DNA of 43,749 nucleotides from a virus. Shown here piece by piece: positions 1,758 through 43,656 of this stretch; positions within the stretch are counted from its first letter, which is position 1, and the number at the start of each line of letters is the position of its first letter. The notes under the pieces were generated by a model. The model saw only the letters and a list, made by a program, of their open reading frames with translations. It had not been told where the DNA came from and made no database searches. A program made the position numbers and the translations under genes. The stretch lies in IMG/VR virus record IMGVR_UViG_3300025952_000007, positions 1 to 43,749 of that record; one strand, given 5' to 3'.

Positions 1758-1996
1758 ACGCTCATTTGTAGACAATAGAAATTTATTTAGTGATTAATTG
1801 GTTGTCAAACTAAAATAAAATTGCTCTAAAACATCGTAGTCAAAAAATAGGCCTGTAACCCGCTTAAAACCTGGATTTCTTAGCTTCCTTGTAGCCCAGT
1901 ATTGGCGCGGCTTTCAGATTTAATTAAAAATCATTTTGAAAATAGGTATAAATTTTTTAGAGTTCAAAAACTTTATAAAAATAATCTTAAAAGGCG
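1758..1996. other. Intergenic stretch without a gene; holds one AAGGAAGCTAAGAAA copy
   Basis: No coding frame with a ribosome site was seen. The one clear signal is the 15-base motif at 1876-1890, on the minus strand, matching five copies elsewhere in the genome. The stretch ends at the first early promoter. Confidence 0.6.
1876..1890 (-). repeat. Dispersed 15-base motif, copy 1 (intergenic, minus orientation)
   Basis: An exact copy of AAGGAAGCTAAGAAA read on the minus strand. It is the only copy outside a gene and the only one in this orientation. See the finding on the dispersed motif. Confidence 0.85.
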
Positions 1997-2025
1997 TTGA
2001 CAAATCTTAAAAAGAGTGATAATAT
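1997..2025 (+). promoter_or_regulatory. Early promoter P1
   Basis: TTGACA (1997-2002), a 17-base spacer ending GAGTGA, and TAATAT (2020-2025). The spacer and the upstream GCG resemble those of the promoters at 2848 and 5228. It would drive the gene at 2067. Confidence 0.75.
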
Positions 2026-2066
2026 ATAGATAGTTAATTAAATCAATTTTTGGGGAGGCCAATAAT

Positions 2067-2795
2067 ATGAATAAAAAAGTAACATTTAGTAAAAAGATCG
2101 AAAAGTTATACATAAGAGATTGCTTAACAAATGAAAGAGAATTAAATTATCCTTTGGGTTATAGAGGTATTGTTATAACTGTTAAAAATCACGAAGATGG
2201 CGAAGGAATTTTGTTAAGTTTAGAAAGATATTTAAACGAATATGATTTAATAGACTTTACACAATACGACGCAAGTTTAAGCAGTTGGGACAACAAGGCC
2301 GAAATTACATTTGTTGTAAATGATCAACATTTAGATGTTTTCTTTGAAGTTTATGAAGATTACAAAAAAAATTATAAAACAATTACCGAAAGACATATCA
2401 AAGAGAATAAAGAACTCGAATTTGATGAAATGAGTTGCGATGATGAAATGTTTGACGATGATGAAATAAAGGTTACTCCAGTAATTAGACCCAGTAACCA
2501 TGCCGAATATGAGGAGGCCAAAAGGGAATTAAGACTAGAATTTGATAAGTTGATTTGTAGAAATGATGAATACCAAAGGGAAATTTTAGCAGTATCAAAG
2601 AAATATAATTTAATGATTTCAGAAATGCACGACGTTTTATTTTTGGCTCATATTGACCAATTAGCGCCGATTTGGGTTGAATATAATGTCCATCAAAAAG
2701 ATCAATGGGACTATTCCGACTTAATTATCAAGTGGGAAAGAATGGCCGAAACCGGCAAATATCAATTAAGTAAACAAATCATATATAAATTTTAG
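2067..2795 (+). CDS. First early-operon protein, unknown, acidic middle
   Basis: The 242-residue protein was not recognised. It has a basic N-terminus and a mixed alpha/beta-like first half with GYRGIVITVKNH and ITFVVNDQHLDVFFEVYEDYKK. An acidic stretch near residues 118-133 (EMSCDDEMFDDDEIK) follows, then a charged, probably helical C-terminal half. There is no signal peptide or membrane segment. It sits directly behind promoter P1 and a strong GGGGAGG site. That ribosome-site context is nearly identical to the one before the RecD2-type helicase at 41041, so the two may share translational control. First position after an early promoter suggests host takeover or regulation, which is inference. 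Confidence 0.8.
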   Translation: MNKKVTFSKKIEKLYIRDCLTNERELNYPLGYRGIVITVKNHEDGEGILLSLERYLNEYDLIDFTQYDASLSSWDNKAEITFVVNDQHLDVFFEVYEDYKKNYKTITERHIKENKELEFDEMSCDDEMFDDDEIKVTPVIRPSNHAEYEEAKRELRLEFDKLICRNDEYQREILAVSKKYNLMISEMHDVLFLAHIDQLAPIWVEYNVHQKDQWDYSDLIIKWERMAETGKYQLSKQIIYKF

Positions 2796-2822
2796 AGGCG
2801 GACTGCGGGCCTCTCAAAAAAA
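2794..2822 (+). terminator. Weak hairpin followed by A-run after first early gene
   Basis: AGAGGC and GCCTCT can form a 6-bp stem just after the stop codon, with CTGCGGGCCTC in the loop and right arm. The same CTGCGGGCCTC occurs after the Erf gene (5990-6000). The following bases are A, not T, so attenuation is only possible. Confidence 0.35.
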
Positions 2823-2847
2823 AAATAAAAAATAATCATAAAAAGCG

Positions 2848-2876
2848 TTGACAAATCATTAAAAAAGTTATATAAT
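2848..2876 (+). promoter_or_regulatory. Early promoter P2, perfect sigma-A consensus
   Basis: TTGACA (2848-2853), a 17-base spacer and TATAAT (2871-2876). Apart from a few bases it matches P4 at 5228-5256, including upstream AAAAGCG and the ATCATTAAAAAAGT spacer. It drives 2922. Confidence 0.92.
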
Positions 2877-2921
2877 TATTTTAGAGTTAATTATTAAATT
2901 TTTTACGGGGAGGCCGTTAGT

Positions 2922-3218
2922 ATGACAGTTAAACAAGCGAAGTTATTAAAGGAAATGTATGAGGTTATGGATTTTGGGATGGACTTTGGAAAGATCGGCA
3001 AAAAGAAACAATATACAAATTGGGAAGCAAGCCAATTAATCAGTTTAAACCAAGACATTTATTATTTAATTACAAGTGAGGGGCAATGTACATTTAGACA
3101 ATATAAAAAACTTTGGGTTTTAGCTGGAAGACAACCAAAATTAGAAAGACATATGATTACTTACAATCAAGCGCAAAAATGGATTGATGAATACTCAAAA
3201 AAACAATTAGCGGTTTAG
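2922..3218 (+). CDS. Small early protein, unknown
   Basis: The 98-residue protein was not recognised. It is basic and rich in aromatic residues (MDFGMDFG, NWEASQLISL, WVLAGRQPKLERHMITYNQ). Its C-terminal TYNQAQKWIDEY has the look of a short helix used in DNA- or protein-binding phage proteins. It has its own promoter (P2) and the ribosome context GGGGAGGCC also found at 2067 and 41041. The role cannot be assigned. Confidence 0.75.
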   Translation: MTVKQAKLLKEMYEVMDFGMDFGKIGKKKQYTNWEASQLISLNQDIYYLITSEGQCTFRQYKKLWVLAGRQPKLERHMITYNQAQKWIDEYSKKQLAV

Positions 3219-3260
3219 ACCGCTTGACATAAATATTTCATTAGGAGAGGGGGTTTTTGA

Positions 3261-3386
3261 ATGGGTTGGCCATGGGATAAACCATCAATACCAACTGGGA
3301 GCGACGGAACAAAGAACACTAACGATAACGACATAATCGGCAACATGGAAACTGAACCGGAAGACGGAGAAGAACAAGTTTATTAA
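3261..3386 (+). CDS. Short acidic peptide with WPWD start
   Basis: A 41-residue reading frame begins MGWPWDKPSIPTGSDG and ends with an acidic stretch rich in N, D and E and a final VY. A GGAGAGGGGG site lies about 8 bases upstream. It is hydrophilic and probably disordered. The strong ribosome site and location inside the early operon support it as real, but no family was recognised. Confidence 0.6.
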   Translation: MGWPWDKPSIPTGSDGTKNTNDNDIIGNMETEPEDGEEQVY

Positions 3387-3420
3387 AATAAACTACCTCT
3401 AAAATACATCTACTAGGCCC

Positions 3421-3451
3421 GCGGCCGGCCTTAATCGGCCGCAATCTTTTT
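3421..3451 (+). terminator. GC-rich hairpin with T-tail
   Basis: GCGGCCG (3421-3427) pairs with CGGCCGC (3436-3442) and is followed by CTTTTT. It is an intrinsic terminator or attenuator between 3386 and 3471; no new promoter was identified before 3471, so read-through is likely needed. Confidence 0.65.
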
Positions 3452-3470
3452 AAATTCTAGGAGGTAACAA

Positions 3471-3827
3471 ATGGCATTAAGTAAAGAAGATGATATCAAA
3501 ATGGCTATTCATAGGGAATTTGAATTTATAAATGATTCAAAAAACCGGCCAAAATATCATACATTATTTGAATTTATTGGCGTTTTATTCGCTGAATACC
3601 AGGAAAGTAAAGACGAATTAATAAATGTGCGTAATGATATAGATATTCTTTGGAATAAGATCAGAACTCATGATTTTATCAAGGATGAGGATATATCAAG
3701 AATTTATGATGATACATTTGATTATATCATGGAGTTGGTCCAAGTGGCCGCAGTTGTTAGAAAGATGATAGAAACTAGAAAAGCCGCAGAAATAATGTCT
3801 ATGAATGAAGAGGTAAAAAAAATATGA
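3471..3827 (+). CDS. Unknown helical protein
   Basis: The 118-residue protein was not recognised. It is mostly predicted helix with alternating charged and hydrophobic residues (ELINVRNDIDILWNKIRTHDFI, ELVQVAAVVRKMIETRKAAEIM), suggesting a small helical bundle or coiled coil. There are no cysteines or membrane segments. An AGGAGG site precedes the ATG. Its stop overlaps the start of the next gene (ATGA), so the two are translationally coupled. Confidence 0.78.
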   Translation: MALSKEDDIKMAIHREFEFINDSKNRPKYHTLFEFIGVLFAEYQESKDELINVRNDIDILWNKIRTHDFIKDEDISRIYDDTFDYIMELVQVAAVVRKMIETRKAAEIMSMNEEVKKI

Positions 3828-4015
3828 TTAGATTAATGGATTCAAAAGATATGATAATTGAAGAAATAAGCGAGGGTCATATTGATTATTCTCATGTGTT
3901 TGTTACTATATACAATGATTTCAAAAAAGAAAGAATGTATAGAATACCATATGATAATATAAAATATGTCTATGAAAATGAATATGAAACAATTGAAGTA
4001 AGATTAAAATTTTAA
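3824..4015 (+). CDS. Small acidic beta-rich protein, unknown
   Basis: The 63-residue protein has alternating strand-like segments (HVFVTIYNDFKKERMYRIPYDNIKYVYENEYETIEVRLKF). It starts inside the stop codon of the preceding gene, so it is probably coupled to it. The pattern resembles small single-domain beta folds but no family was recognised. Confidence 0.68.
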   Translation: MIRLMDSKDMIIEEISEGHIDYSHVFVTIYNDFKKERMYRIPYDNIKYVYENEYETIEVRLKF

Positions 4016-4021
4016 AAGCAA

Positions 4022-4056
4022 GGTGTTAACATGTAAAAAGTGTTGACACCGTTTTT
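4022..4056 (+). terminator. Terminator whose right arm contains the next promoter's -35 box
   Basis: GGTGTTAACA (4022-4031) pairs with TGTTGACACC (4041-4050) with one G-T wobble, followed by GTTTTT. The right arm contains the TTGACA of promoter P3, so an upstream transcript ends at the place where the next one begins. Confidence 0.72.
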
Positions 4057-4071
4057 AATGAGTGATATAAT
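4043..4071 (+). promoter_or_regulatory. Early promoter P3, perfect sigma-A consensus
   Basis: TTGACA (4043-4048), 17 bases, TATAAT (4066-4071), followed by TATTTTA as in P2. The spacer ends AGTGA like P1 and P4. It drives the gene at 4106 and the HTH/HIRAN genes behind it. Confidence 0.9.
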
Positions 4072-4105
4072 TATTTTAAGATTTAATTTATTAGGAGGAA
4101 ATTTT

Positions 4106-4327
4106 ATGGAATATAAAAAGAAAATTTTAGAAACTTCAAAAAATTATAATATTGACATTGACTTTGAAAGTCTTTTAAATCCAGAGATTGAAGAACAAAA
4201 AACATGTCATCACTGTATATCAAATGAACGCGGATATTGTTTAATGTTTGGTGGCCGAATATTAAATGAGGTTAAAAGCCTATGTTATAAAAAGGAGAGT
4301 GGACAAAATGAAAATAAAAAAGACTAA
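4106..4327 (+). CDS. Small cysteine-containing early protein
   Basis: The 73-residue protein begins MEYKKKILETSKNYNIDIDF. It carries CHHC at residues 34-37, a further C near 46 and a C near 61, enough ligands for one zinc site, though spacing matches no family I can name. The ATG at 4106 is chosen because AGGAGG lies 8 bases upstream and promoter P3 fits just before it; an in-frame ATG at 4040 lies inside the promoter and is rejected. It overlaps the next gene by 20 bases. Confidence 0.75.
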   Translation: MEYKKKILETSKNYNIDIDFESLLNPEIEEQKTCHHCISNERGYCLMFGGRILNEVKSLCYKKESGQNENKKD

Positions 4328-4535
4328 ATCAAGAATCTTTGATAGTGCTTATTTTAGGTATGTAATGGCTAGTAACAATGTAGATACACAATATTTAGCC
4401 AACCTTTTAGATGTAAGCCGCAATCATATGGACAAAAAAATTAAAAGAGGTATTTTTGATATTGACGAAGCAAAAGTCTTAATGGACCTTTTCGGCAGTT
4501 CATTTGATGAAATATTTAAATTTAAGGGGGAATAG
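4308..4535 (+). CDS. HTH protein, XRE-like
   Basis: The 75-residue protein has a helix-turn-helix-like core VDTQYLANLLDVSRNHMDKK (about residues 24-43) followed by DIDEAKVLMDLFGSSFDEIFKF, the usual closing helices of Cro/CI-type domains. The ATG at 4308 has GGAGAG upstream and is preferred to the earlier in-frame ATG at 4266. It is a likely DNA-binding regulator acting as a dimer in the cytoplasm. It is paired with another HTH gene at 4538, two bases downstream. The operator is not known; the P1-P4 promoter family is the obvious candidate. Confidence 0.78.
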   Translation: MKIKKTKSRIFDSAYFRYVMASNNVDTQYLANLLDVSRNHMDKKIKRGIFDIDEAKVLMDLFGSSFDEIFKFKGE

Positions 4536-4537
4536 TT

Positions 4538-4834
4538 GTGAAGTTGACTAAAAAGATAGTAGATAATAATCTTTTAAAATATCGTATATGGAAGAATTGG
4601 ACACAAGAAGAAGTCGCCGCAAAATTAAGATTATCAGTCAATAAATATCGACAAATTGAGGTTAATAAAAGATATCCAAGGGCTGATATTGTTAGAAGAA
4701 TACTTAATTTATTTGATGTAAGTTTAGATCAAATGTTTGTAATTGAAAAACCAATTTATGCTAATTATGAAAGTTTAGCAATTCCAAAAGATAGGCCAAA
4801 TAATAGTCGTTTTTCTGGCCGGATGGAGGTATGA
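4538..4834 (+). CDS. XRE-family transcriptional regulator
   Basis: The 98-residue protein has a clear Cro/CI HTH domain at about residues 12-66: LKYRIWKNWTQEEVAAKL, then LSVNKYRQIEVNKRYPRADI as recognition helix region and ILNLFDVSLDQMF closing it. The C-terminal 30 residues are polar. GTG start with AAGGGGG upstream. It lies between another HTH gene and the HIRAN gene, all behind promoter P3. It probably tunes early transcription. It is on the same strand as the lytic genes and has no divergent partner, unlike a classical lysogeny switch. Confidence 0.88.
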   Translation: MKLTKKIVDNNLLKYRIWKNWTQEEVAAKLRLSVNKYRQIEVNKRYPRADIVRRILNLFDVSLDQMFVIEKPIYANYESLAIPKDRPNNSRFSGRMEV

Positions 4835-4835
4835 A

Positions 4836-5231
4836 ATGGGGCGTTTATTTACAGTAGTGGGAATAAAATATTATGATTATGAAAGTCATAAAGATATGAT
4901 TCAAGAGGGAGATATAGTTTATTTAGAACCGGAACCGGAAAACAAATTTGATAAAAATGCGACTGTAGTTTATTTCCCTTTTGATAACTTAAAAATTGGC
5001 TATGTATCAGCCAAAGAAACCGATTATTTATTTGATGACCTGAAAAATTGTACTTTTAAAATACATTCATTTTATAAAAATGTAATCTTAATTGAAGAAA
5101 ATATCATAACTCCTTTTGATTTTGATAAATTAAAAAAGTCATCAAATGAACTATTATCACAGGGCGAAATCGAGGAAGCGTCAATTATTGAAACTGTTAA
5201 AAATTTTTTCGCAAAGCTTAAAAAGCGTTGA
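4836..5231 (+). CDS. HIRAN-domain protein
   Basis: The 131-residue protein has a stand-alone HIRAN domain at about residues 4-72. It has FTVVGIKYYDY, then EGDIVYLEPEPENKFDKNA, the hallmark Gly-Asp followed by E-P-x-N-x-x-D-x-N-A, and LKIGYVSAK. HIRAN domains bind DNA ends or unusual DNA and usually sit beside helicase or nuclease domains in SNF2-like enzymes such as HLTF. Here the domain is alone, with a helical, charged C-terminal tail (IEEASIIETVKNFFAKLKKR). The next gene is an Erf-type annealing protein, so a role at recombination intermediates is reasonable inference. The stop codon overlaps the -35 of promoter P4. Confidence 0.85.
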   Translation: MGRLFTVVGIKYYDYESHKDMIQEGDIVYLEPEPENKFDKNATVVYFPFDNLKIGYVSAKETDYLFDDLKNCTFKIHSFYKNVILIEENIITPFDFDKLKKSSNELLSQGEIEEASIIETVKNFFAKLKKR

Positions 5232-5256
5232 CAACTCATTAAAAAAGTGATATAAT
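5228..5256 (+). promoter_or_regulatory. Early promoter P4, perfect sigma-A consensus
   Basis: TTGACA (5228-5233), 17-base spacer, TATAAT (5251-5256). It is nearly identical to P2 over about 36 bases. It overlaps the stop codon of the HIRAN gene and drives the Erf-type gene. Confidence 0.92.
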
Positions 5257-5286
5257 TATTATATAATTTATTAGGAGGTCATATCA

Positions 5287-5985
5287 ATGGAAAATAAGGA
5301 ATTATCATTTTTTAAAAGAATTGCTTTAGCTAAAAAAGAAGTTTTCGAGGGTGTTCAATCTGAGGACCTAGACAAGGCCGGGAATAATAAATCGGGTTAT
5401 TACAGTATAAAAACCATAGTAACACATTTGAATCCAGCAATGGATAAGTATGATTTAGATTGTGATATAGTCATGACTGATAATTTAGCGACTTTCATTT
5501 GGCTTGATTGCAACTCAGATAAAACCAGGACTATTACACTTGAATTAAGGCCGATGTCAAGTATTGAAAGATTGGCAAGTATGCAAAATATTGTCCAATC
5601 GGCGGGAGCGGTTTTGTCTTATTATAAAAGATATTTATTAACAACTGTTTTGAATTTAAATTCAACTGACTTAATCGAAAATTCACCCAGTAACCAAAAT
5701 AAGAACCAAAATCAAAAAAGTGGACAAACCGGCCAGAATAAAACAGAACAAACCGAAAAGCCGCCAAAATTAGTAAATGATAACTTATTAAAGGCCATGT
5801 TTGCATTGATGAATCAAAAAGGTGTGTCTAAGGAAACAATGAAGAAATCAATTGAAAAGCAATATAATATTACATCTAGTAAACAACTTAATGTCAGACA
5901 ATATGATAGTATAATGGCTTACTTTAGAGGTTTGCCAGATAAAACAAAGGAAGCTAAGAAACCGGAGGAAAAAATTCAAAGATAG
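5287..5985 (+). CDS. ERF-family single-strand annealing protein
   Basis: The 232-residue protein matches the Erf family of phage recombinases. The N-terminal domain (1-125) includes GYYSIKTIVTHLNPAMDKYDLDC, an ELRPMSSIERLASMQ region, and the conserved end IVQSAGAVLSYYKRYLLTTVL, equivalent to the G-x-x-x-x-Y-x-x-R-Y segment of the family. A polar linker rich in N, Q and K follows (about 130-160), then a C-terminal helical domain (165-225). Erf proteins form rings that anneal complementary single strands in phage recombination and genome circularisation. An ERCC4 nuclease, HIRAN protein and methyltransferase lie close by. The KEAKK codons near the 3' end contain one copy of the dispersed 15-base motif. 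Confidence 0.88.
   Translation: MENKELSFFKRIALAKKEVFEGVQSEDLDKAGNNKSGYYSIKTIVTHLNPAMDKYDLDCDIVMTDNLATFIWLDCNSDKTRTITLELRPMSSIERLASMQNIVQSAGAVLSYYKRYLLTTVLNLNSTDLIENSPSNQNKNQNQKSGQTGQNKTEQTEKPPKLVNDNLLKAMFALMNQKGVSKETMKKSIEKQYNITSSKQLNVRQYDSIMAYFRGLPDKTKEAKKPEEKIQR
5947..5961 (+). repeat. Dispersed 15-base motif, copy 2
   Basis: An exact copy of AAGGAAGCTAAGAAA inside the 3' end of the Erf gene, read there as K-E-A-K-K. Confidence 0.85.
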
Positions 5986-6001
5986 GGGCCTGCGGGCCTC
6001 A
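5986..6001 (+). other. Short GC-rich hairpin after the Erf gene
   Basis: GGGGCC and GGCCTC-type arms can form a 6-bp stem with a TGCG loop. It shares CTGCGGGCCTC with the element after the first early gene. There is no T-tract, so it may stabilise mRNA ends and not terminate. Confidence 0.35.
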
Positions 6002-6068
6002 AAGATTTTGATAGTTTATATTAGAACAATTAAAACTAAAGATAATACTATATATTGGAGGAAATATT

Positions 6069-6368
6069 ATGGTAACGATTGATTTAACGAAAGATGAAGT
6101 TTGCAAGTTTTTAAAGACTAAGGAAGTTCTAACAATTATGGACCTTCTTCAAGATCAGGAAAATGTTCTAATTGCTAAAATGGTTAAAACAAATAATGAT
6201 ATTCATGTAAGTGCAGTTGTTATGGATAGTGGTGATGCAAAGTCAGAGTTTTTATTATTTTCAGCCACGGCCAAAGTCGAATTAATAGATTATACAATGA
6301 AATTAAGAAATGAATTGAGGGAGTGTGCAAAAATACCAGGAGAAAAGGAGGAGGAAATTAAGTCATGA
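6069..6368 (+). CDS. Unknown early/middle protein
   Basis: The 99-residue protein was not recognised. The N-terminal part (TIDLTKDEVCKFLKTKEVLTIMDLLQDQENVLIAKMVKTNN) is charged and helical. A strand-rich part (IHVSAVVMDSGDAKSEFLLFSATAKVELIDYTMKL) and an acidic, Lys/Glu-rich tail follow. A GGAGG site lies 7 bases before the ATG. Its stop overlaps the start of the next small membrane gene. Confidence 0.72.
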   Translation: MVTIDLTKDEVCKFLKTKEVLTIMDLLQDQENVLIAKMVKTNNDIHVSAVVMDSGDAKSEFLLFSATAKVELIDYTMKLRNELRECAKIPGEKEEEIKS

Positions 6369-6520: not shown

Positions 6521-6532
6521 GGAGGTTAGGAA

Positions 6533-7096: not shown

Positions 7097-7120
7097 TTAA
7101 AGGGCCAATTGGTCCTTTAA
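7097..7120 (+). other. Palindromic hairpin after the nuclease gene
   Basis: AAAGGGCC (7099-7106) pairs with GGTCCTTT (7111-7118) with one wobble, loop AATT. It is followed by A and not T, so it could be an mRNA-end stabiliser or a weak terminator. Confidence 0.4.
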
Positions 7121-12663: not shown

Positions 12664-12781
12664 AAAGGAATTAGAAAAATTAATTATTGCTCCGGTTAGG
12701 ACCGAAACTCCGGCAAGGAAGCTAAGAAGAAAAAGAATCGTAGATAAATATTTTAAAAAGGGGAAAAGTGAAAATGTGTAA
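12650..12781 (+). CDS. Small basic protein overlapping the minor capsid gene
   Basis: A 43-residue frame starts at 12650 with GAGG six bases upstream. It overlaps the minor capsid gene by 14 bases and the next gene by 8. It is strongly basic in the middle (ARKLRRKRIVDKYFKKGK). Coupled overlaps on both sides support it. It contains a copy of the dispersed 15-base motif, read here as R-K-L-R-R. Confidence 0.65.
   Translation: MMKTEKELEKLIIAPVRTETPARKLRRKRIVDKYFKKGKSENV
12715..12729 (+). repeat. Dispersed 15-base motif, copy 3 (one change)
   Basis: AAGGAAGCTAAGAAG, one base different from the other copies. It lies in the small basic gene in the reading frame R-K-L-R, not K-E-A-K-K. Confidence 0.8.
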
Positions 12782-22097: not shown

Positions 22098-22535
22098 ATG
22101 GCTCAGGCGAGCAATAGAAAGGATTTAGTAAATATGAGGAAATTAAATTTTAATGAAATCTTACTAGTTAGTAAGATTTTAAGGGAAATGGGGACAAAAG
22201 CATATGTTGAATATGCTATTAGAATGAATGAAAGATTAACAGAAAAAATGAAAAAAGATGTTTCAAAATCTGATGAAGAAAAAAAGAAGGCTAAAGATGA
22301 CGCAATAGGAATTGACGTGGCTATTTTTGTATTAGAAAACATGGATTTAGCCAGAGATTCATTATTTGAATTATTTGCATCTTATAATGAGATTTCAGCT
22401 GAGGAAGCTAAGAAACTTGATTTTGATAAAATAGTGGAAACTGTTCAAAATATAATTAAAGCTGGTTTACCTGATGCCCTTATGAAAATATTAAAGAAAA
22501 CTGGTATAAATTTTTTAGCAAAGGCGAATGTATAG
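22098..22535 (+). CDS. Tail assembly chaperone, upstream part (G-like)
   Basis: The 145-residue acidic, helical protein sits between tail-tube and tape-measure genes. A TTTTTTA slippery heptamer (22511-22517) occurs six codons before its stop. A -1 slip there continues into the following frame, giving a longer protein of about 266 residues. This is the G/GT arrangement of lambda and many siphophages, which chaperone the tape measure during tail assembly. The ATG at 22098 lacks a strong ribosome site (the tube stop is 2 bases upstream), suggesting translational coupling. Confidence 0.85.
   Translation: MAQASNRKDLVNMRKLNFNEILLVSKILREMGTKAYVEYAIRMNERLTEKMKKDVSKSDEEKKKAKDDAIGIDVAIFVLENMDLARDSLFELFASYNEISAEEAKKLDFDKIVETVQNIIKAGLPDALMKILKKTGINFLAKANV
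22402..22415 (+). repeat. Dispersed motif, copy 4 (first base differs)
   Basis: AGGAAGCTAAGAAA preceded by G and not A, in the tail chaperone gene, read as E-E-A-K-K. Confidence 0.8.
22511..22517 (+). other. Programmed -1 frameshift site TTTTTTA
   Basis: The codons AAT TTT TTA place the heptamer T TTT TTA in frame 0, as required for tandem slippage. After a -1 shift the frame reads AGC AAA GGC and remains open through 22897. The downstream frame has no ribosome site of its own. TTTTTTA is also the slippery sequence used by HIV-1. Confidence 0.85.
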
Positions 22536-31802: not shown

Positions 31803-32849
31803 TTAAAATGAACTTTCTTTAATATATTTTAAACTGGTCCCGGAACTTTGAAAACAATTTAACTCATTTTTAATTTTTTTCCACTGCCCCTCTGTCAAGT
31901 CAAATATTTGTCTAATTTTCCCACTTGGTATTGTGTCCCCATCTTTGAAATTTTCATTTAAGTAAGTTGCAATTTCATTTTTTAAAATAGTTAAGTCCTT
32001 TTCTTTTAGTAAAATTACATTCTTAACTTTTCCTAACTCTTGACTTAACTTTTTATTTTCTTGACTTAACTCTGACTTAACTTTTCCTAACTCTTGACTT
32101 AACTCATTTTCTAACTCTGTCTTAACTTGTCCTAACTCTGTAATAGCTTCATTCTCATTAGATGTCTTAGTTACGATTTTAAATGTCTCTTGACATTTTT
32201 TAAATGTCTCTTGATTGTCACTTAAGTCAAAAGTTAAGTCATTCAAGTTATTATTATATTTGTTAAAAGTATCCATTCTTAACTTATGCAATTTATTAAA
32301 CATCATCATGCGAATTATTGAAAATAGGCCAACACTTTCAATTCTTTTTATCTTATTTTCTTGATAATTTAATAATCTAAAGTCACCGCCCATTGCTGTG
32401 GTTAACAATATTGAACCTTCTAAAAGTATGGATAATGCTAAATTCCATAAACTTTTTTCTTCAAAGAATTTATAATTATAATTTATGGATATTGCAAAAA
32501 GGCCCATTTGAAATATTTTAGCAATTAAATAATACCTAGAAAATTTATTTTTTATAGTTGATTCCTTGATGCATATGCTATACACTGACAGTTGACAAAA
32601 AATAATACCAATTATAAAGCCTGTTAATCCAAGGGTTGTTTTATGGGTTTTAAGTCCGCCAACAATGGTCATAATTGTGGAAGCTGTAAAGCCCATAAAA
32701 CCAATTAAGCCAAAAATATAACCCCAAAGTTTAGTTGAATTATCATATTTAATTTCATTTTTTAAATGGCTCATAGTCCTTTTTACACTTATAAGATTAT
32801 AATCCATCTTTATTTTTTTAATATTTTCTTTCATTTTTTCAATAGTCAT
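31803..32849 (-). CDS. Membrane protein with coiled coil and C-terminal DNA-binding-like domain
   Basis: The 348-residue protein has a charged N-terminus and membrane segments at about 42-63, 72-92, 105-122 and 137-153. A long coiled coil follows (about 215-300) with a repeated S-Q-E-L-G-K-V-K unit. The C-terminal domain (about 305-348) has IPSGKIRQIFDLTEGQWKKIKNEL, like a winged-helix or HTH fold, and ends GTSLKYIKESSF. A membrane anchor joined to a DNA-binding head by a stalk suggests a protein that ties DNA to the membrane. It is last of the operon with the FtsK-type ATPase. No known family was recognised; segregation or transfer is inference. Confidence 0.75.
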   Translation of the reverse strand: MTIEKMKENIKKIKMDYNLISVKRTMSHLKNEIKYDNSTKLWGYIFGLIGFMGFTASTIMTIVGGLKTHKTTLGLTGFIIGIIFCQLSVYSICIKESTIKNKFSRYYLIAKIFQMGLFAISINYNYKFFEEKSLWNLALSILLEGSILLTTAMGGDFRLLNYQENKIKRIESVGLFSIIRMMMFNKLHKLRMDTFNKYNNNLNDLTFDLSDNQETFKKCQETFKIVTKTSNENEAITELGQVKTELENELSQELGKVKSELSQENKKLSQELGKVKNVILLKEKDLTILKNEIATYLNENFKDGDTIPSGKIRQIFDLTEGQWKKIKNELNCFQSSGTSLKYIKESSF

Positions 32850-33332
32850 CTAATTATCCTCCCTTATCAATTTATATTTTCGATTCATTTCTATTATTTC
32901 ACTTATCCAACCAAGATTTAATAAATCATTAAATCTTTCTGATATTAAGTCCTTTCCACAATTAAAGTAATTTGCAATTAATCTATTACCTTCTTTTGTA
33001 TAAATATTATCTATTGCTTTATCTTTCATGTAAATATATAACATTTCAAATTGACATTGTTTACTAAGCTTTTTAAAGTTTTGGCGGTTATTTTCATTAA
33101 AATTTGGCTCATTTTCTGGGAAAATAACATCACCTTTTCCGCCGCCGCCACCTTGATAATATATAATAGTTGTTTTACCTTCTAAAAAATTCTTTAAATG
33201 TATTTCACTAAAATGACTATTGTAAGGAGGCTTTATCGGGTAAAGCGGGTTTATCAAGATTGGCTTTGATTCTGGTTGGTTTTGAATAGCCAACTGCTTT
33301 AATTGCTTCAAAAACTCTGTTATGATTATCAT
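32850..33332 (-). CDS. Winged-helix-like protein overlapping the ATPase gene
   Basis: The 160-residue protein starts 116 bases inside the 3' end of the ATPase gene in another frame. The ATG at 33332 is supported by AGGGGGTG seven bases upstream. N-terminal part is P/L/Q-rich; a GGGGGKGD turn occurs near residue 61; the C-terminal half (about 90-158) has CQFEMLYIYMKDKAIDNIYTKEGNRLIANYFNCGKDLISERFNDLLNLGW, typical of a replication-initiator or winged-helix DNA-binding domain. It is next to the membrane translocase, as initiator or relaxosome proteins are in mobile plasmids. Function inferred only. Confidence 0.72.
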   Translation of the reverse strand: MIIITEFLKQLKQLAIQNQPESKPILINPLYPIKPPYNSHFSEIHLKNFLEGKTTIIYYQGGGGGKGDVIFPENEPNFNENNRQNFKKLSKQCQFEMLYIYMKDKAIDNIYTKEGNRLIANYFNCGKDLISERFNDLLNLGWISEIIEMNRKYKLIREDN

Positions 33333-34983
33333 CTATAAACACCCCCTTTAATTTATAAACTTCGCCTTTTTCATTCTTGAAGCAAAAATATCCCTGCTCT
33401 TGATTCATTGCATAATTGTAATAATCTGGACTTTCTAACATGTATTTTATTTCCGATGATTCAGCAAATTTATGTATTAATCGGCCATCTGCTGAAACTC
33501 TCCAAGTCTTATAATATTGGTCATCGGTGGCTTTTTGTATAATGTCTATGAGATGAAATCCTGCCGATCGTGATTTTGTAAATAAATAAGTCCTTATATC
33601 CTTATAATTCATTTCCTGAGTTTCATTCCCAAAGTCAATTGTGTATTCTCTTTTATAATTCATTTGGACAGGAGTATTAATTTCATCACTTACAATTAAA
33701 AAAAATGGTAATGGATTATCCGGGAACATTTTATTATATTGGATTATGTCCCTGCATTCGATGCCAGTATCAAAAGTAACATCTTCAAATAGTTTATTTC
33801 TTCTCTTAAATTCGCCAATAAGATTAATATAAAATTCCATTTGGGCCGATTCGCTATCCTCTACCATATAAATATTTTTGATGCCTCGATATCTATTCAT
33901 AGCGGACCTTTTAAAATCGGTTATGAATACAACTAATTTATCGTAACTATAATAAATCATTCCATCAATACAACTTATGGCCGTGCAACTTTTTCCAGTA
34001 TTAGTCATACCACCAATTACCGCATGCGTTAATTTAGTCATATCAGAAAATATTACTTTTCCATTGGTAGGATCTATTCCTACGATAAACGGCAAAATCA
34101 TATCTTTAGGCGGTTTAACTGTCTCAATAACTTCATCTAAATAATACACTTTATTGTCCAACTTTTTGATTTTAAACTCATAATTTCCTTCGTTTGTTGT
34201 GATTTCTAATTTTCCAGATTTTAATCCTAATTTATGAGTTATTTCGGCTAATTCCCGGTTTAAAAATTTAAGTTTAATTTTGGATTGATAAATATATATA
34301 TCTTGATATTTGTCAGTAATTGAACTTATATAATATGGTATTCCTTTCATATCTTTTAAAATTTGTTCTAATCGTTCACGGCTACCAGGTTCCATTTTTG
34401 AATATCTATCGTCAAGACCTTTTTTATATTTGATATAAAACTTATTTCTATTTACAATATCATTTGTTATACTGGTAACAGTTGCATTTGTTATAATAGA
34501 AAATAGTATTTTGTGCTTTTCGTCTAGTGGTACATTGGACCTGACCTCCAATGTACCATTTACATTTTCAACAAGCCTTACTTTATTGTCATATTCTTCA
34601 TTAAGCCGCTCAATTATTTTATCTGTTATATATAAGGACCATAAAACAAATCTTATTAAGTCCAATGGATAACTTATTACCAAAGGCAAAAATAATATTT
34701 TAAGGGAAAAATTGAAGTAGTGAATAACTAATCCAGCCAGAACAATACCAATTATCATAATAGCTATAACTCCCCTAAAATCAAGTTTTTTGACATAACT
34801 CTTTGTTAGTCTCATAAATGAAAATAATTTATTTCTTTTTTTTTGCTTTACCATGGCCAGTTTAAAACCATGGGAAACCAAAATAAAAAGAAAGCCAAAC
34901 AATGGATTGATTTTAAAATATTGAAGTATACCAGCTAACACAATACTTGCAATTACTTCAAATTTTGTTACTAAAATCTTCAT
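33217..34983 (-). CDS. Membrane FtsK/SpoIIIE-type DNA translocase
   Basis: The 588-residue protein has two pairs of N-terminal membrane segments (about 8-45 and 71-118). A cytoplasmic linker region follows, then an FtsK-type motor with Walker A GGMTNTGKS (324-332), Walker B FFLIVSDE (427-434) and arginine/sensor region FTKSRSAGFHLIDIIQKA (about 463-480). There is no gamma DNA-orienting domain at the C-terminus. Size and layout are closer to Gram-positive conjugation coupling proteins such as TcpA and to ICE FtsK-like proteins than to bacterial FtsK (which is larger). It would pump double- or single-stranded DNA at the membrane. It heads the minus-strand operon behind a perfect promoter, divergent from an AbrB-like gene. 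Such genes are unusual in siphophages. Confidence 0.86.
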   Translation of the reverse strand: MKILVTKFEVIASIVLAGILQYFKINPLFGFLFILVSHGFKLAMVKQKKRNKLFSFMRLTKSYVKKLDFRGVIAIMIIGIVLAGLVIHYFNFSLKILFLPLVISYPLDLIRFVLWSLYITDKIIERLNEEYDNKVRLVENVNGTLEVRSNVPLDEKHKILFSIITNATVTSITNDIVNRNKFYIKYKKGLDDRYSKMEPGSRERLEQILKDMKGIPYYISSITDKYQDIYIYQSKIKLKFLNRELAEITHKLGLKSGKLEITTNEGNYEFKIKKLDNKVYYLDEVIETVKPPKDMILPFIVGIDPTNGKVIFSDMTKLTHAVIGGMTNTGKSCTAISCIDGMIYYSYDKLVVFITDFKRSAMNRYRGIKNIYMVEDSESAQMEFYINLIGEFKRRNKLFEDVTFDTGIECRDIIQYNKMFPDNPLPFFLIVSDEINTPVQMNYKREYTIDFGNETQEMNYKDIRTYLFTKSRSAGFHLIDIIQKATDDQYYKTWRVSADGRLIHKFAESSEIKYMLESPDYYNYAMNQEQGYFCFKNEKGEVYKLKGVFIDDNHNRVFEAIKAVGYSKPTRIKANLDKPALPDKASLQ

Positions 34984-36605: not shown

Positions 36606-36901
36606 ATAATGAAATTATTGGAAATTGTGGATTATTTGAAAAACATCTTAAAACTATGATTCAAAATATGAATGAACAAATGAGAATATTTAATGAATTT
36701 AATGCAATTATAGGAATGGATATTTACTCATTCTTAGAGTTATATAAGGCTGGAATAATTATAATTCCTAAATTATCGGAATTAGCAAAATGTTGTAATG
36801 AAATTGGGGCCAATACTATTATTAATATTTTCAGAGTATTTGATAAAGATACCAGCCAATTAATGAAAGAATTAAAGGAGTTGAATAATGATGATGGGTG
36901 A
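36602..36901 (+). CDS. Small helical protein
   Basis: The 99-residue protein has amphipathic helices (LFEKHLKTMIQNMNEQMRIFNEFNAIIG; YKAGIIIIPKLSELAKCC) and an acidic tail KELNNDDG. It is translationally coupled to the previous gene by ATGA overlap. No family recognised. Confidence 0.68.
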   Translation: MNNEIIGNCGLFEKHLKTMIQNMNEQMRIFNEFNAIIGMDIYSFLELYKAGIIIIPKLSELAKCCNEIGANTIINIFRVFDKDTSQLMKELKELNNDDG

Positions 36902-37022
36902 TGAAACGTTAATAAAAATTATATTTGGTTATATTTGTATCATAATTTTTATTACAATAATTGTAAACATCCTAAGGAAGCTAAGAAAACGACTAACTAT
37001 AAAGAATTTTAATAGAAGGTGA
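36888..37022 (+). CDS. Small membrane protein with basic tail
   Basis: A 44-residue frame starts with three ATG codons after GGAG, overlapping the preceding stop. One hydrophobic segment (about 8-29, IKIIFGYICIIIFITIIVNI) is followed by LRKLRKRLTIKNFNRR. It would sit with its basic tail in the cytoplasm. The 15-base dispersed motif encodes L-R-K-L-R-K here. Confidence 0.68.
   Translation: MMMGDETLIKIIFGYICIIIFITIIVNILRKLRKRLTIKNFNRR
36974..36988 (+). repeat. Dispersed 15-base motif, copy 5
   Basis: Exact AAGGAAGCTAAGAAA in the small membrane gene, in the L-R-K-L-R-K frame. Confidence 0.85.
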
Positions 37023-38742: not shown

Positions 38743-38759
38743 AATTTCATCCTCCTAAA

Positions 38760-38804: not shown

Positions 38805-38812
38805 ATCTTTTT

Positions 38813-41041
38813 TTAATTTATTTCCATCTTTTCAACTAGTAATGTTTTCCTTTTGCTAGAAAGTTTGTTCCTTACTATCTTATTGATAGTATCTTTACTA
38901 TTTGAGATTAAAGCGAATAATTTTTTGGCCCTAGTTATTGCTGTATATAACAATCTTGAATCGGTTATCATATTAAATTCTGATAAATCACAAACCACGG
39001 TTTCAAACTCACTGCCTTGTAATTTGTGAATAGTGCAACAATAAGCCAGTTTTAAATTTTCTAATTCATCCCAATTTAAATCATAACTTACATGTTTATC
39101 GAGGCCAAAATAATAGACAACTATTTGAATATCTTTCTTTTTTTCAGTGCTATTATAAAACTTTTCTAGTTGTTCATTAGTTTTAACTACTTGTATCATG
39201 TCTAAGTAATCAGTATATTTAATAGAATCAATGCGGCCAAATTCGCCGTTATAAACATCATTCATATAGTCATTTTTAGTATTCATTATTTTATCGTTTA
39301 AATGAAATCCGGTCGGTTTTGTGCCTATAAAAATTGAAGTATTTTCGTTTTTTTCTGAAATAATTAAATTAATTTCGTTACATCTCCTGCGGCTTGATGT
39401 ACAAATTTGAAATTCATTATAAAAAGTATCTAAGCTTCCTTTATTTGTAAGGTCAATATCTTTAGTTTTAGCGGCCCAACACTTTAAAATATAATCAGTT
39501 GGGTTGTTTTGGATTGTACTAAAAAAGTCTTTTGATTTGATCATATCGAATGATTTATTTTCCCGGACTAAATTTGCCACGTTTAAAATATTGCTATCAC
39601 CGGCTTGACGAAATGTGTTAGTCAAGGTTATTACATTGATTTTGCCTGATGTTATTAAATCAGCTTGAACAGAACCGGCGCCAACGCTTGGCAATTGGCC
39701 AGGGTCGCCGACTAAGATCAATTTAACATAATTTGTTAGACTGTTAACCATGGCTTTTAATACTTTATGGAATAAAACTGTATCAACCATACTAAATTCA
39801 TCAATGATCATACAATAGGGACGGCTTGAAATGTTGTCATTCTGGCCGGATTCTTCACTATAATAAAATCTATGACATGTGACTGCATCGTGATTCGTTG
39901 CTTCTGACATGCGGCGCGCGGCTTTGCCAGTTGGGGCAATACAAGTCATTCTATAATTTAATTTTTCCAAAATAAAGATTATACATTTTATTATTGTTGT
40001 TTTACCAGTTCCGGCGCCACCGCAAATCATTGATACATTGCCAGTAACCCCACTAATAACGGCCTCTTTTTGGACTACATGTAATCTAATTTTATTCTCA
40101 TGTTCATATTGTCTAATTAGGACCTCTATATTAGATTTTTCATATTCTGACATTTGATCTAAATTAGAAATAAGTTTCAAATTAGTTGGAATCATTTTTT
40201 CTGCTTCATTCATGGCCTTAGTTTGAATTTTTCCATTTTCATTTACAACTTTTGCGTCATCACAATTAATAAAATCATTTACATTTTCAATACCAAGATT
40301 GTAATTACTGATTTCATCAACAAAGGTGTCTATTTCAACATATGTTGAGCCAAAACCAGTAATTTTATTTGTTATTTGCTCAGTTAAATATAAAATCCTG
40401 CTTCTTAAGTTCTTAGGACATTTAAACTTTTCTTGTGCTAAATAATCAACTTTTTTGAAATTCATTTCTAAGTCATTTATCAAAATCTCGTACGGATCAG
40501 CCTTAAATTGATCCACTGATATATTTTTTTCATTTAAAAACCCTACCAATTTATGTATTTTCTTATTGGTTATACTTTGACCAGCCAAGGCAATGACTTT
40601 TCTTAAAGTTTCATTTGATTTTAAGAAGTTCAGGCCCTCGAATATTTTTTCTATTGTGGCCGGTCCAACTCCCTTTATTTTTGGACATTCTTTAGAATAG
40701 AATATTGATAAATCATGATTTGGTATTCCGTCCAATACTTTTTTAGCTGTTCCGTCTTTTATTCCTTTTATTGAGCAAAGTAAATTAAATTTTGCGTTAT
40801 ATGAAGTTGTATCAAATATTTCATATGATGCCTTAAATGATGGACTACCACGGTATAAGGTTTTGACTCCGACGAGAGTCGTGATGCCTGGCCTTAACAT
40901 AAAACCATTGCAATTGACTGTTAATTCTCCTAAAAAGTTGCCGTGTTCCTTGCTGTCAGCTACATAAACAGTAAAATCATCCTTTGTATAAATTTCTTTG
41001 ATAATGTCAACTTTGATTTCAATTTCCTTTAAATTATTCAT
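38813..41041 (-). CDS. RecD2-type helicase
   Basis: The 742-residue protein is an SF1B helicase of the RecD2/TraA group. An N-terminal OB-like part is followed by helix-hairpin-helix segments (about 89-136, CSIKGIKDGTAKKVLDG, KIKGVGPATIEKIF). The motor has GGAGTGKTT (341-349), DEFSMVD (414-420), GDPGQLPSVG (445-454), LTNTFRQ and the C-terminal AYCCTIHKLQGSEFETVV with LLYTAITRAK. These enzymes unwind 5'-3'. It likely supports DNA replication from the nearby origin, since the phage has no polymerase of its own. Promoter at 41090-41118 is divergent from an AbrB-like gene. GGGGAGGCC ribosome context shared with 2067. Confidence 0.94.
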   Translation of the reverse strand: MNNLKEIEIKVDIIKEIYTKDDFTVYVADSKEHGNFLGELTVNCNGFMLRPGITTLVGVKTLYRGSPSFKASYEIFDTTSYNAKFNLLCSIKGIKDGTAKKVLDGIPNHDLSIFYSKECPKIKGVGPATIEKIFEGLNFLKSNETLRKVIALAGQSITNKKIHKLVGFLNEKNISVDQFKADPYEILINDLEMNFKKVDYLAQEKFKCPKNLRSRILYLTEQITNKITGFGSTYVEIDTFVDEISNYNLGIENVNDFINCDDAKVVNENGKIQTKAMNEAEKMIPTNLKLISNLDQMSEYEKSNIEVLIRQYEHENKIRLHVVQKEAVISGVTGNVSMICGGAGTGKTTIIKCIIFILEKLNYRMTCIAPTGKAARRMSEATNHDAVTCHRFYYSEESGQNDNISSRPYCMIIDEFSMVDTVLFHKVLKAMVNSLTNYVKLILVGDPGQLPSVGAGSVQADLITSGKINVITLTNTFRQAGDSNILNVANLVRENKSFDMIKSKDFFSTIQNNPTDYILKCWAAKTKDIDLTNKGSLDTFYNEFQICTSSRRRCNEINLIISEKNENTSIFIGTKPTGFHLNDKIMNTKNDYMNDVYNGEFGRIDSIKYTDYLDMIQVVKTNEQLEKFYNSTEKKKDIQIVVYYFGLDKHVSYDLNWDELENLKLAYCCTIHKLQGSEFETVVCDLSEFNMITDSRLLYTAITRAKKLFALISNSKDTINKIVRNKLSSKRKTLLVEKMEIN

Positions 41042-41075
41042 ATTGGCCTCCCCAAAAATTTTATTTAAATTTATA

Positions 41076-41104
41076 TTGCTTATATATATATTGTATAGTA
41101 TAAT
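41076..41104 (+). promoter_or_regulatory. Promoter of the second AbrB-like gene
   Basis: TTGCTT (41076-41081), 17 bases, TATAAT (41099-41104). It uses the same TTGCTT as the first AbrB-like gene and overlaps the opposing promoter at 41090. Confidence 0.78.
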
Positions 41105-41118
41105 GACTATATAGTCAA
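41090..41118 (-). promoter_or_regulatory. Promoter of the RecD2-type helicase with palindromic operator
   Basis: On the minus strand TTGACT (41113-41118), 17 bases and TACAAT (41090-41095). A perfect palindrome TGACTATATAGTCA (41104-41117) overlaps its -35 region and abuts the -10 of the opposite promoter: a clear candidate operator. Confidence 0.8.
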
Positions 41119-41154
41119 GTATATATTTTATTTTAAATTTAGGGGGAAAATGAT

Positions 41155-41319
41155 ATGAAAATAAAACTAAGGATATTAAATGGATCGGCTTATATGTTAA
41201 TTAATAAAGAAGTAAAAGAAATGTTGGAAATTGGAGATTTTGTTGATGCAAAAATAGTTGATGGGAAAATAATTGTTGATAAAGTTATTGATAAATCTGT
41301 GGATAAAATCACAAAATAA
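41155..41319 (+). CDS. AbrB/SpoVT-like DNA-binding protein 2
   Basis: The 54-residue protein (MKIKLRILNGSAYMLINKEV, then KEMLEIGDFVDAKIVDGKII) follows the swapped-hairpin AbrB/SpoVT pattern: short strands, a helix with KEVKEMLEIG, and VDAKIVDGKIIV. It is divergent from the RecD2-type helicase, with overlapping promoters and a palindromic operator between them, so it likely represses the helicase and itself. The last 20 codons contain DnaA box 1, so the gene runs into the origin. GGGGG ribosome site seven bases upstream. Confidence 0.84.
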   Translation: MKIKLRILNGSAYMLINKEVKEMLEIGDFVDAKIVDGKIIVDKVIDKSVDKITK

Positions 41320-41435
41320 ATACTTAATCTGTGGATAACTTTTAATACTGTGGATAAGTCTGTGGATAAAATTCTGTGGATATGTGGACAACTTTGTTGA
41401 ATAATTTATATTAAAACTATCATATAATAAAAAAA
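41298..41435 (+). other. Probable replication origin: six DnaA boxes plus AT-rich region
   Basis: TGTGGATAA, the complement of TTATCCACA, occurs exactly at 41298, 41330, 41349 and 41361; TGTGGATAT at 41375 and TGTGGACAA at 41383 differ by one base. All lie on the same strand within 94 bases. They are followed by about 45 AT-rich bases (41392-41435) suitable as an unwinding region. A helicase gene follows directly and a RecD2-type helicase lies on the other side. This is the layout of a DnaA-dependent origin. Host DnaA would bind here. Confidence 0.9.
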
Positions 41436-41466
41436 TAGCCCTTGTCATAAATTTATGACTTGGCTA
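41436..41466. promoter_or_regulatory. Palindrome at the origin/helicase boundary
   Basis: GTCATAAATTTATGAC (41444-41459) is a perfect 16-base palindrome, and outer arms TAGCC (41436-41440) and GGCTA (41462-41466) extend it. A TATAAT lies just upstream at about 41423-41428. It may be an operator for the helicase gene or a part of the origin. Confidence 0.65.
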
Positions 41467-41493
41467 AATTTTTCAATATCTAGGAGGTATTAT

Positions 41494-43656
41494 ATGACAA
41501 AAAGGGAAAAAAATCAAGTCAATTGGTTTGAGGAGGTAAAAAATAATATCAGACTTGAAAACAATGAAAGTTTTTTCATTGGAGAAATTCCCGCTCCTGC
41601 TGGAACTAAAAAAGCTATGAGATATGGAACTGGCGAAGGAAAAACTTACAATGCCGCTTATTTTGCTTTGTATAATTTATTTTATACCAGCAGAAAAATA
41701 ATAATTTCCACAACTAAAAATGAAAATGTTGAGGATCTTTTAAATGAAATTTTTGATATTTTAAAGAAAAATATATCAATTACAGAAAATTTACAACAAT
41801 TTTTAGATGATGGAATTAAAAAAAGTGTAGGGAAACAACTTTTAAAAAAGTTAGGGATTAATAAAATGGTAAGTTATAATCAAATTGCAAAAGAAAATTT
41901 ATCAATGGCCAGGGTTATTATAACAAATCATTCCTATTTTTACCCAAATGGTCATTCTAGTTACTACTTCAAAAATATTCTCAAACTTATGGAGGTCATT
42001 GGTCCTGATGATATATTTATCATTGACGAGGCCGACGAGTTTGAAAAAATGGCAGAAACTTCAATACAATTGAATGACTATTTAAAAACCGTTAAGTCAA
42101 GTACTGATAATATTTTAAGGCCTGCTAAAAATTGCTTTGCCAGTCGGAGCAAAGATCAATTTATTAAGGCAATGGACGAATACCGGTATGAACTACCAGT
42201 TGAAAACACCAATATAAGATTTACAAAAGAGGGGGATTTTGATACGCCTACTTATGTTTTGGACCAAACAAACAATAATTTGGACCTAGACCAATTAATT
42301 AATGAGTTTTATTTTGAAAAACATACCTTTGAAGATACTGGCCGGCGTGTTGGAATGACAATTGATGCTTTCGATAATAAATTCAAATTGCTCCGGGTAT
42401 TTAAAGGCGAATATCTAAGCCCAAATAATATCAATCATTACCATTTGGAAACTAATGATATTTTAAGGTTAATTCAAAATTCAATCGGCGCAACTAAAGT
42501 TGAGCAAATAATTAGACTTTTAGATCCACTCACTGAGGAGCCAATTATTGATTTTGATACTAGAGAAGAATTTATATCATGGTGTCAAAAAAATATGACT
42601 ATCAATCAATATGATAAAATGATCAAAAAGTTGATGAATGAGGCAAAATTACTTTATAAGAGATTTTTAACAGTCAAAAGAAAGCCTATCATTAATAAAT
42701 GCAATACAGTATATTATATTACGGCAACTCCTTACAATCTTAATCAATTAGGTTATTTTGTAGAAAATGGTAAATCAAAAAAAGTAAATACAATTGAAAA
42801 TATTGATATGTTCTTTATAAATAGGGATATATCAGTTGACAACTTAGTTATCAACTTGGCAACTGAATGCTTACTTAATTATAAAGATGATATCAATTGT
42901 CTTAGCTTCGCCGCAGAGAAAAGAAATGTTGAGAAGTTAATAAAATCCAAAAAATATCTTTACAAAGATAAAAAATATTCTGGCGTAAAGGTTAAAACTT
43001 CGATTAATGATGATTATCTGGTTGATTTAAAAGGTGTTACTGCAGTATTAGGTGAGGCCGATAATTATGAATGTATTAAAGACTATTCTTATATAACATA
43101 TTTGAATAGCCCAGAATCAACTGGGAAAAATTATAAGGTATCAAATCTTTGTATCATTAACACCCAGCCAGAAATTAATGCCCTGGGTCGTCAATTAATA
43201 ACAGATAAATATGCCAAGTTTATTGATATTGAAGTTGCTAGTTTTAGGACCATTCTGCAAGCTTGCGGCCGAATTGAGAGAGCAGACAGCGAAAAGTATA
43301 AAGCCATTATTTTTATTGGAAAAGATGAAAACATTGTTAATAATTACATTGAAGAAAAAAAAGGAAATGGCATAATTTATAATTTTATGAGTGACAAAAC
43401 CATTAAATTAGGTGAAAAAAACCTAAAACATAAGATTATAAAAATATTTGACCATATCAAAGCTAATATTAACAGTGATTTCGAAGAAATGCAATTAAGT
43501 TTTCAAGATTCAAGAAAAAAATACAATAAATCCGAAATAATTCAATACTATTTAAACTTATTATCTAATAATTTAGATAAGGAAGCTAAGAAACAAACAA
43601 TTTATAAATTTGGCATTGCTAGAAATTTATTAAATCAATATATCAAAAATATTTAA
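41494..43656 (+). CDS. SF2 DEAD-box-type helicase
   Basis: The 720-residue protein has Walker A GTGEGKT (45-51), motif Ia IIISTTKN (69-76), motif II IIDEADEF (176-183), motif III YYITATPY and motif VI QACGRIERADS near residue 600. It is an SF2 helicase; the four cysteines of DinG/XPD enzymes are not present. The ATG at 41494 is chosen because AGGAGG lies 7 bases upstream. The gene directly follows the DnaA-box array, so it may unwind or load at the origin. The end crosses the circular join. A copy of the dispersed motif lies near the 3' end. Confidence 0.9.
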   Translation: MTKREKNQVNWFEEVKNNIRLENNESFFIGEIPAPAGTKKAMRYGTGEGKTYNAAYFALYNLFYTSRKIIISTTKNENVEDLLNEIFDILKKNISITENLQQFLDDGIKKSVGKQLLKKLGINKMVSYNQIAKENLSMARVIITNHSYFYPNGHSSYYFKNILKLMEVIGPDDIFIIDEADEFEKMAETSIQLNDYLKTVKSSTDNILRPAKNCFASRSKDQFIKAMDEYRYELPVENTNIRFTKEGDFDTPTYVLDQTNNNLDLDQLINEFYFEKHTFEDTGRRVGMTIDAFDNKFKLLRVFKGEYLSPNNINHYHLETNDILRLIQNSIGATKVEQIIRLLDPLTEEPIIDFDTREEFISWCQKNMTINQYDKMIKKLMNEAKLLYKRFLTVKRKPIINKCNTVYYITATPYNLNQLGYFVENGKSKKVNTIENIDMFFINRDISVDNLVINLATECLLNYKDDINCLSFAAEKRNVEKLIKSKKYLYKDKKYSGVKVKTSINDDYLVDLKGVTAVLGEADNYECIKDYSYITYLNSPESTGKNYKVSNLCIINTQPEINALGRQLITDKYAKFIDIEVASFRTILQACGRIERADSEKYKAIIFIGKDENIVNNYIEEKKGNGIIYNFMSDKTIKLGEKNLKHKIIKIFDHIKANINSDFEEMQLSFQDSRKKYNKSEIIQYYLNLLSNNLDKEAKKQTIYKFGIARNLLNQYIKNI
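43579..43593 (+). repeat. Dispersed 15-base motif, copy 6
   Basis: Exact AAGGAAGCTAAGAAA near the 3' end of the SF2 helicase gene, in the K-E-A-K-K frame. Confidence 0.85.

Follow-up and report, generated by a model that had tools for sequence, protein, structure and literature searches.

The DNA analyzed here (the window, W) is the 43,749-nucleotide IMG/VR virus record IMGVR_UViG_3300025952_000007, a whole circular phage genome of 43,622 bp followed by an end repeat of 127 bp. It carries six copies of a 15-base motif, AAGGAAGCTAAGAAA, four exact and two with one changed base, none of them inside the end repeat. Table 1 lists these copies with two weaker matches and an FtsK-type gene module. 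A first-pass annotation had reported the six copies, and a recount confirmed its coordinates, strands, one-base variants and reading frames: K/E-E-A-K-K is encoded at 5947, 22401 and 43579, R-K-L-R at 12715 and 36974, and the copy at 1876 is intergenic. The dispersed motif is real and is selected at the nucleotide level, and it may act as a regulatory site in transcripts.

Allowing up to two mismatches, W holds 8 copies against 0.34 expected from dinucleotide shuffles, none of 100 of which reached 8. The reversed pattern, used as a control, gave no matches in W, and reversed-word controls in relatives were also zero. The motif is the top dispersed word of W at every length from 11 to 15. Just one other 15-mer, ATGGGACTCTCTTAA, reaches four copies, and these are limited to the first 200 bp and their terminal duplicate; TTGTGAGGCTAAA (five copies) was ruled out as a rival dispersed word, being a repeat within one gene. 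No other dispersed 15-mer is equally frequent, and the motif survives that comparison. A search of W against Rfam gave no family match, and W contains no tRNA.

Table 1. Motif copies, weaker matches and the FtsK-type module in W; G1 and G2 are relatives described in the text.
Feature	Positions	Strand	Context and conservation
Exact copy	1876–1890	-	Intergenic region 1702–2066; strand opposite to flanking genes; 15 of 15 bases kept in G1
Exact copy	5947–5961	+	Erf-like single-stranded-DNA-annealing gene, near 3' end; frame 0, KEAKK; kept in G1
Two-mismatch match, AACGAAGCTGAGAAA	10541–10555	+	Terminase small subunit gene; conserved in G1; weak member
One-base variant, last base G	12715–12729	+	Conserved 47-codon open reading frame; other frame, RKLR; G1 reads AAGGAAGTTAAAAAG, not conserved
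One-base variant, first base G	22401–22415	+	Tail-region gene, EEAKK; G1 copy with 2 changes, G2 copy AAGGAAGCTGAGAAC
FtsK-type module	31803–34983	-	Genes of 348, 160 and 588 amino acids; apparent membrane segments; reader favored by the first-pass annotation
Exact copy	36974–36988	+	Small open reading frame 36888–37022 with a hydrophobic stretch; different frame, LRKLRK; identical in G1
Two-mismatch match, AAGGAAGCTTAGATA	39427–39441	-	Sense to RecD-like helicase gene; probably a by-product of protein sequence (KGSLD)
Exact copy	43579–43593	+	733-codon gene 41455–43656, near 3' end; KEAKK; identical in G1, 1 change in G2

Searches with TerL and the helicase identified two relatives, G1 (IMGVR_UViG_3300027675_000013; TerL 86% to W), with six exact copies, and G2 (IMGVR_UViG_3300038431_000007; TerL 75% to W), with nine near copies. 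A further relative, G4 (IMGVR_UViG_3300004063_000012; TerL 65% to W), has one motif copy only and is called motif-less below. In a site-by-site comparison, the copies at 1876, 5947, 36974 and 43579 keep all 15 bases in G1 despite diverged flanks; the tail of the Erf-like gene beyond the 5947 copy, for instance, has diverged with insertions. The variants at 12715 and 22401 are not conserved in full. Loss from close relatives could have refuted the motif, but of the set of six, the four exact copies stood in G1 while the two variants did not.

An alignment of capsid proteins added G013 and G014 (also written G13 and G14) and fragments, with TerL at about 50% and 10 and 13 GAAGCTNAGA sites, as well as G011 (G11), in which the motif occurs in hairpin pairs. 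A blind scan of IMG/VR for the exact 15-mer returned 120 stretches, most of them single chance matches. Two outliers, IMGVR_UViG_3300025563_000008 and IMGVR_UViG_3300035138_000024, carry 11–13 and 8 motif copies (13 and 8 of GGAAGCTNAGA) and have W-like terminase, portal and tail genes at low identity (TerL 34–37%). Because these outliers proved to be distant family members, the motif word itself finds the phage family, and a plain text search for it serves as a practical family marker. The motif is family-wide, down to TerL identities of 33–34%. Related terminase or capsid genes also occur in more distant elements of Lactobacillaceae and Clostridia, phage-plasmids among them, but these have no motif except one copy in L158. 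Six bacterial genomes carrying related capsid genes show no enrichment, and a literature search for the motif word found no match.

Across independent sites in the relatives, the motif resolves to RAGGAAGCTRAGA, and the flanks carry little information. The earlier claim of a 15-base motif thus holds as a nucleotide-level signal, but the conserved unit is this 13-base core, of which the 15-mer is the W/G1 form. On the sense strand of seven genomes, the core GGAAGCTAAGA occurs 39 times against 0.22 expected. Single substitutions in it are very sharply restricted: A>G at core position 8 (9 copies, 127-fold) is the one change that is tolerated freely.

The motif could in principle be a by-product of composition or of lysine- and glutamate-rich protein sequence, since K/E-E-A-K/E-K is a plausible peptide and many copies encode it. 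In codon shuffles that keep the proteins of W, the exact motif is observed twice against 0.02 expected and a relaxed core 4 times against 0.07; in G1 the figures are 5 against 0.06. Synonymous-codon shuffles of coding DNA gave, for GGAAGCTAAGA, observed and expected counts of 3 and 0.04 in W, 5 and 0.05 in G1, 7 and 0.07 in G13, and 5 and 0.09 in G14, and for GGAAGCTNAGA in G2, 5 and 0.1. The peptide KEAKK, found twice in W and four times in G1, is always written AAG GAA GCT AAG AAA, with AAG making up only 22% of lysine codons. The three coding copies common to W and G1, which span two reading frames, keep every codon (probability 1e-4 given the residues). Codon choice, the two frames and this conservation beyond the residues agree with the earlier statement that protein sequence does not explain the motif. 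Together with the intergenic copy and the copies in ribosome-binding sites (RBSs) described below, they refute a protein by-product for the set as a whole, and we give that explanation almost no credence; single weak matches such as 39427 may fit it.

We then considered how the copies lie relative to genes. After orthologous duplicates were removed by hand, sense copies outnumber antisense ones by about 40 to 7 among independent sites (p = 1e-6), or by 32 to 7 without the RBS copies, which upholds the earlier claim that one orientation dominates. Copies in minority-strand genes follow the gene's own sense (G2 15813, G13 6762, G19 19942), and motif orientation thus tracks transcription of genes on both strands. 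In 10 of 59 non-antisense copies a start codon follows the core after 0–1 nucleotides, against 0.5% expected, as scored in a window of -2 to +6 with gene starts from a simple heuristic. These RBS-type copies, about 1 in 6, read AGGAGGAAGCTAAGA(A)ATG; examples are G13 11798, 15386 and 16968, G14 8839, G19 37920, G20 32143 and G2 26246. At the W copy at 36974, the next start codon lies about 40 nucleotides downstream.

These placements bear on the roles first suggested for the motif, namely a polarity signal for the FtsK-type translocase, a Chi-like recombination site, a centromere-like partition site or a packaging site. An asymmetric word with one dominant orientation would suit such a role, and the FtsK-type module is conserved in G1 and G2 and missing in G4. 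It is also missing, however, from G11, G13, G14, G19 and G20, and a PF01580 search found no member in G011, G013, G014, G019 or G020, the last four of which are motif-rich. Since relatives with 8–13 motif copies have no such module, it is not required, and an orientation set per gene rather than per replichore further argues against a polarity signal. The module has nothing close in the phage or plasmid collections. A Chi-like site fits poorly with an orientation that follows the transcribed strand, minority-strand genes included, and with copies 0–1 nucleotides from start codons. The same two facts speak against a packaging site, as does the related terminase small subunit in motif-less G4. 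For a centromere-like site, the ParB-fusion protein is absent from G19 and G20 (G13 and G14 show only its methylase part), and the copies are dispersed, not clustered. This group of roles is largely refuted, and we regard it as very improbable.

The search for another phage-encoded reader gave a similar picture. A conserved small helix-turn-helix (HTH) family was rejected as a candidate: G4, although motif-less, has the family too, and the recognition-helix region of these proteins varies alongside a constant motif. W itself encodes HTH proteins at 4266–4535 and 4538–4834. No candidate regulator family is common to all motif carriers. Phages of the W type and those of the G13/G19/G20 type have structural genes in common, and hardly any of their non-structural genes, for replication and regulation, overlap; this also applies to G14.

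Several copies are arranged as inverted repeats. Strong RNA hairpins, variable in their loops, arise from inverted motif pairs in G2 and G19 and from two such pairs in G11 (z = -6.5 in G2 and -4.6 in G11), and G13 has short inverted repeats that also form strong hairpins. In the two G11 pairs, a double change turns C-G into U-A, and there is a U.G wobble. In G1, a 15-bp inverted repeat encloses the counterpart of the intergenic copy in its loop, and the hairpin has z = -5.7. Another reading is an antisense small RNA: a phage transcript over the intergenic copy (UUUCUUAGCUUCCUU, + strand) would pair with sense motif copies carried by mRNAs. Most genomes with dispersed copies do have 1–3 antisense copies, mostly in hairpins (W 1876, G1 8849, G2 27013, G13 11505, G19 300), the G1 loop copy among them. 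Against this, G20 has eight sense copies and zero antisense, wobble-compatible A>G is tolerated at positions 8 and 9 only, and the W copy has no convincing promoter-terminator unit around it and no Rfam match. We consider a phage antisense RNA improbable; a host-encoded small RNA is a possible pairing partner.

The closest rival is that the copies are DNA sites of the stoperator or dispersed-operator kind, known from Cluster A mycobacteriophages and from P1 C1. An asymmetric 13-bp duplex would then bind a repressor-like protein that blocks initiation or elongation, the reader here being host-encoded or undetected. The length, asymmetry, scatter and single orientation relative to transcription match stoperators (PMC6550527; PMC9283540). 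Moreover, the sharpness of recognition at individual positions is protein-like, a DNA site would naturally occur in antisense and inverted-pair copies, and motif copies turn over by single bases between G13 and G14. On the other hand, the motif-bearing phages have no repressor-like protein in common, the only widespread small HTH family having the shortcomings described above. None of the six listed W copies overlaps the four repeated sigma-70-like promoters (near 2000, 2850, 4046 and 5230), and the inverted pairs keep RNA-type pairing with variable spacing. We judge this rival unlikely.

Three features favor a transcript-borne site: the excess of sense copies, their precise position at start codons and the hairpins. 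A host factor would be its simplest reader, because the FtsK-type module is absent from motif-rich relatives, non-structural genes are hardly shared and the HTH family occurs in G4 too. That G4, nearer to W by TerL (65%), is without the motif bar one copy supports a host-encoded reader. Our preferred explanation, held tentatively, is therefore a regulatory site that acts in transcripts and is read by a host-encoded factor; recognition on RNA, the host origin of the reader and a post-transcriptional effect are the parts of it that we infer from sequence. Phage mRNAs would carry the motif (core RAGGAAGCTRAGA) in RBSs, in 5' leaders and inside or near gene ends, mostly in the sense orientation. 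The host would supply a trans-acting factor, whether an RNA-binding protein or a small RNA, that binds the motif and might adjust the translation or stability of several phage mRNAs together. The hairpin copies (intergenic in W and G1, inverted pairs in G2, G11 and G19) could be a sequestered or decoy form of the site.

Several observations weigh against a transcript-borne site with a host reader. The start-codon placement is support rather than proof, because gene starts are heuristic and the 5' purine half of the motif is Shine-Dalgarno-like; RBSs may thus be pre-adapted sites for a motif selected otherwise, and a generous base rate of 5% lowers the enrichment to p = 0.002. The 7 independent antisense copies are far above chance, and a purely sense RNA site predicts none unless hairpins explain them, which leaves G1 39873 and G19 2680 unexplained. 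These antisense copies are the main fact that neither the transcript-site nor the stoperator account explains cleanly. The predicted RNA accessibility of the sites is the same as for the word planted at random, and the intergenic hairpin of W is no more stable than shuffles and shows no double compensatory changes relative to G1. Pairing to an antisense RNA alone predicts A>G tolerance at positions 3, 4 and 11, which is not seen. Finally, 399 genomes of the phylum showed no enrichment of the one RBS form searched, and the true host may be outside this sample.

To our knowledge, phages described as having dispersed regulatory sites encode the readers themselves. Here the site is near-invariant down to 33–34% TerL identity among phages whose non-structural genes barely overlap, and a close relative, G4, has lost it. 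These facts point to some factor of the host on which the phages depend or to which they respond. It is possible, if rather doubtful, that the near-invariant 13-base transcript site is a regulon-wide handle for a novel host RNA-binding factor, kept while the phage regulatory genes turn over completely. The motif offers a defined sequence for pulling out the host factor.

Other repeats and elements were noticed along the way. Close to the intergenic copy, a stretch well conserved in G1, GTTTTAGAGCAATTTTATTTTAGTTTGACAACC (W 1803–1848, - strand), looks like a type II CRISPR repeat and lies between that copy and a terminator-like inverted repeat near 1716–1750; the region could equally be a promoter (TTGACA-17-TAAATT at 1808–1780). 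Four related promoter blocks of the GTTGACA then TATAAT type, 65–87% alike, sit upstream of early genes at W 1983–2042, 2834–2893, 4029–4088 and 5214–5273. Nested inverted repeats built from ATGGGACTCTCTTAA and GAGAGCAGTATTTA occupy W 29–200 and 43651–43749 in a non-coding region of about 800 bp, a candidate origin, resolution or attachment site. A basic open reading frame of 49 amino acids at W 271–420 (- strand) is 88% identical in G2, although its surroundings are not conserved. The word CTGGCCGGAT has five exact copies in mixed frames (W 1371, 4815, 17676, 36057 and 39842), against about 0.1 expected in this AT-rich genome, and these are mostly not kept in G1. In G4, CTGGCTGGGG was considered as a parallel motif and set aside, since two of its copies make up a terminator-like hairpin and the remaining ones, few and variously oriented, do not allow a judgment. 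Other repeated words, ACACCTAGTGATAG in G4 and AATTAGCATCGGAA and CATGTATCCATGTA in plasmids of Subdoligranulum and Apilactobacillus, fall within a gene or in clusters and are not dispersed. In G004 (L162), large hairpins at 32040–32560 (record coordinates) have nearly identical loops (AGGTTTATATATACGATTTTCC) on different, self-complementary stems, and a strong terminator comes next.

Known systems resemble the motif in part. The stoperators of Cluster A mycobacteriophages are asymmetric sites of about 13 bp, many per genome and mostly in one orientation relative to transcription (PMC6550527). The motif described here is likewise about 13 bp, asymmetric, multicopy and orientation-biased. In the Cluster A system (L5 gp71 type), however, each phage encodes a cognate repressor and the site drifts along with it, whereas for the present motif the search for a shared phage reader found none, the sequence is near-constant to 33–34% TerL identity, and several copies form the RBS itself. 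The operators of P1 C1 are also asymmetric and dispersed over the phage genome, but they overlap promoters, an overlap not seen here with the four repeated promoters of W, and are read by a phage-encoded protein. CsrA/RsmA binds sites that overlap the Shine-Dalgarno sequence of its targets, with a further hairpin copy in a non-coding decoy RNA, and a GGA core suffices. The motif contains AGGA and has a non-coding hairpin copy, and at about 10 copies a CsrA-type ANGGA core overlaps the Shine-Dalgarno sequence, but the conserved core is far longer: eleven to thirteen bases are strictly conserved, among them GCTRAGA, a stretch that CsrA does not recognize. The ops element, a 12-base transcription-oriented site, is read by the host factor RfaH, a NusG paralogue, and occurs once per operon in the early leader, whereas the similarly oriented motif of these phages is present in 5–13 copies, many of them within genes.

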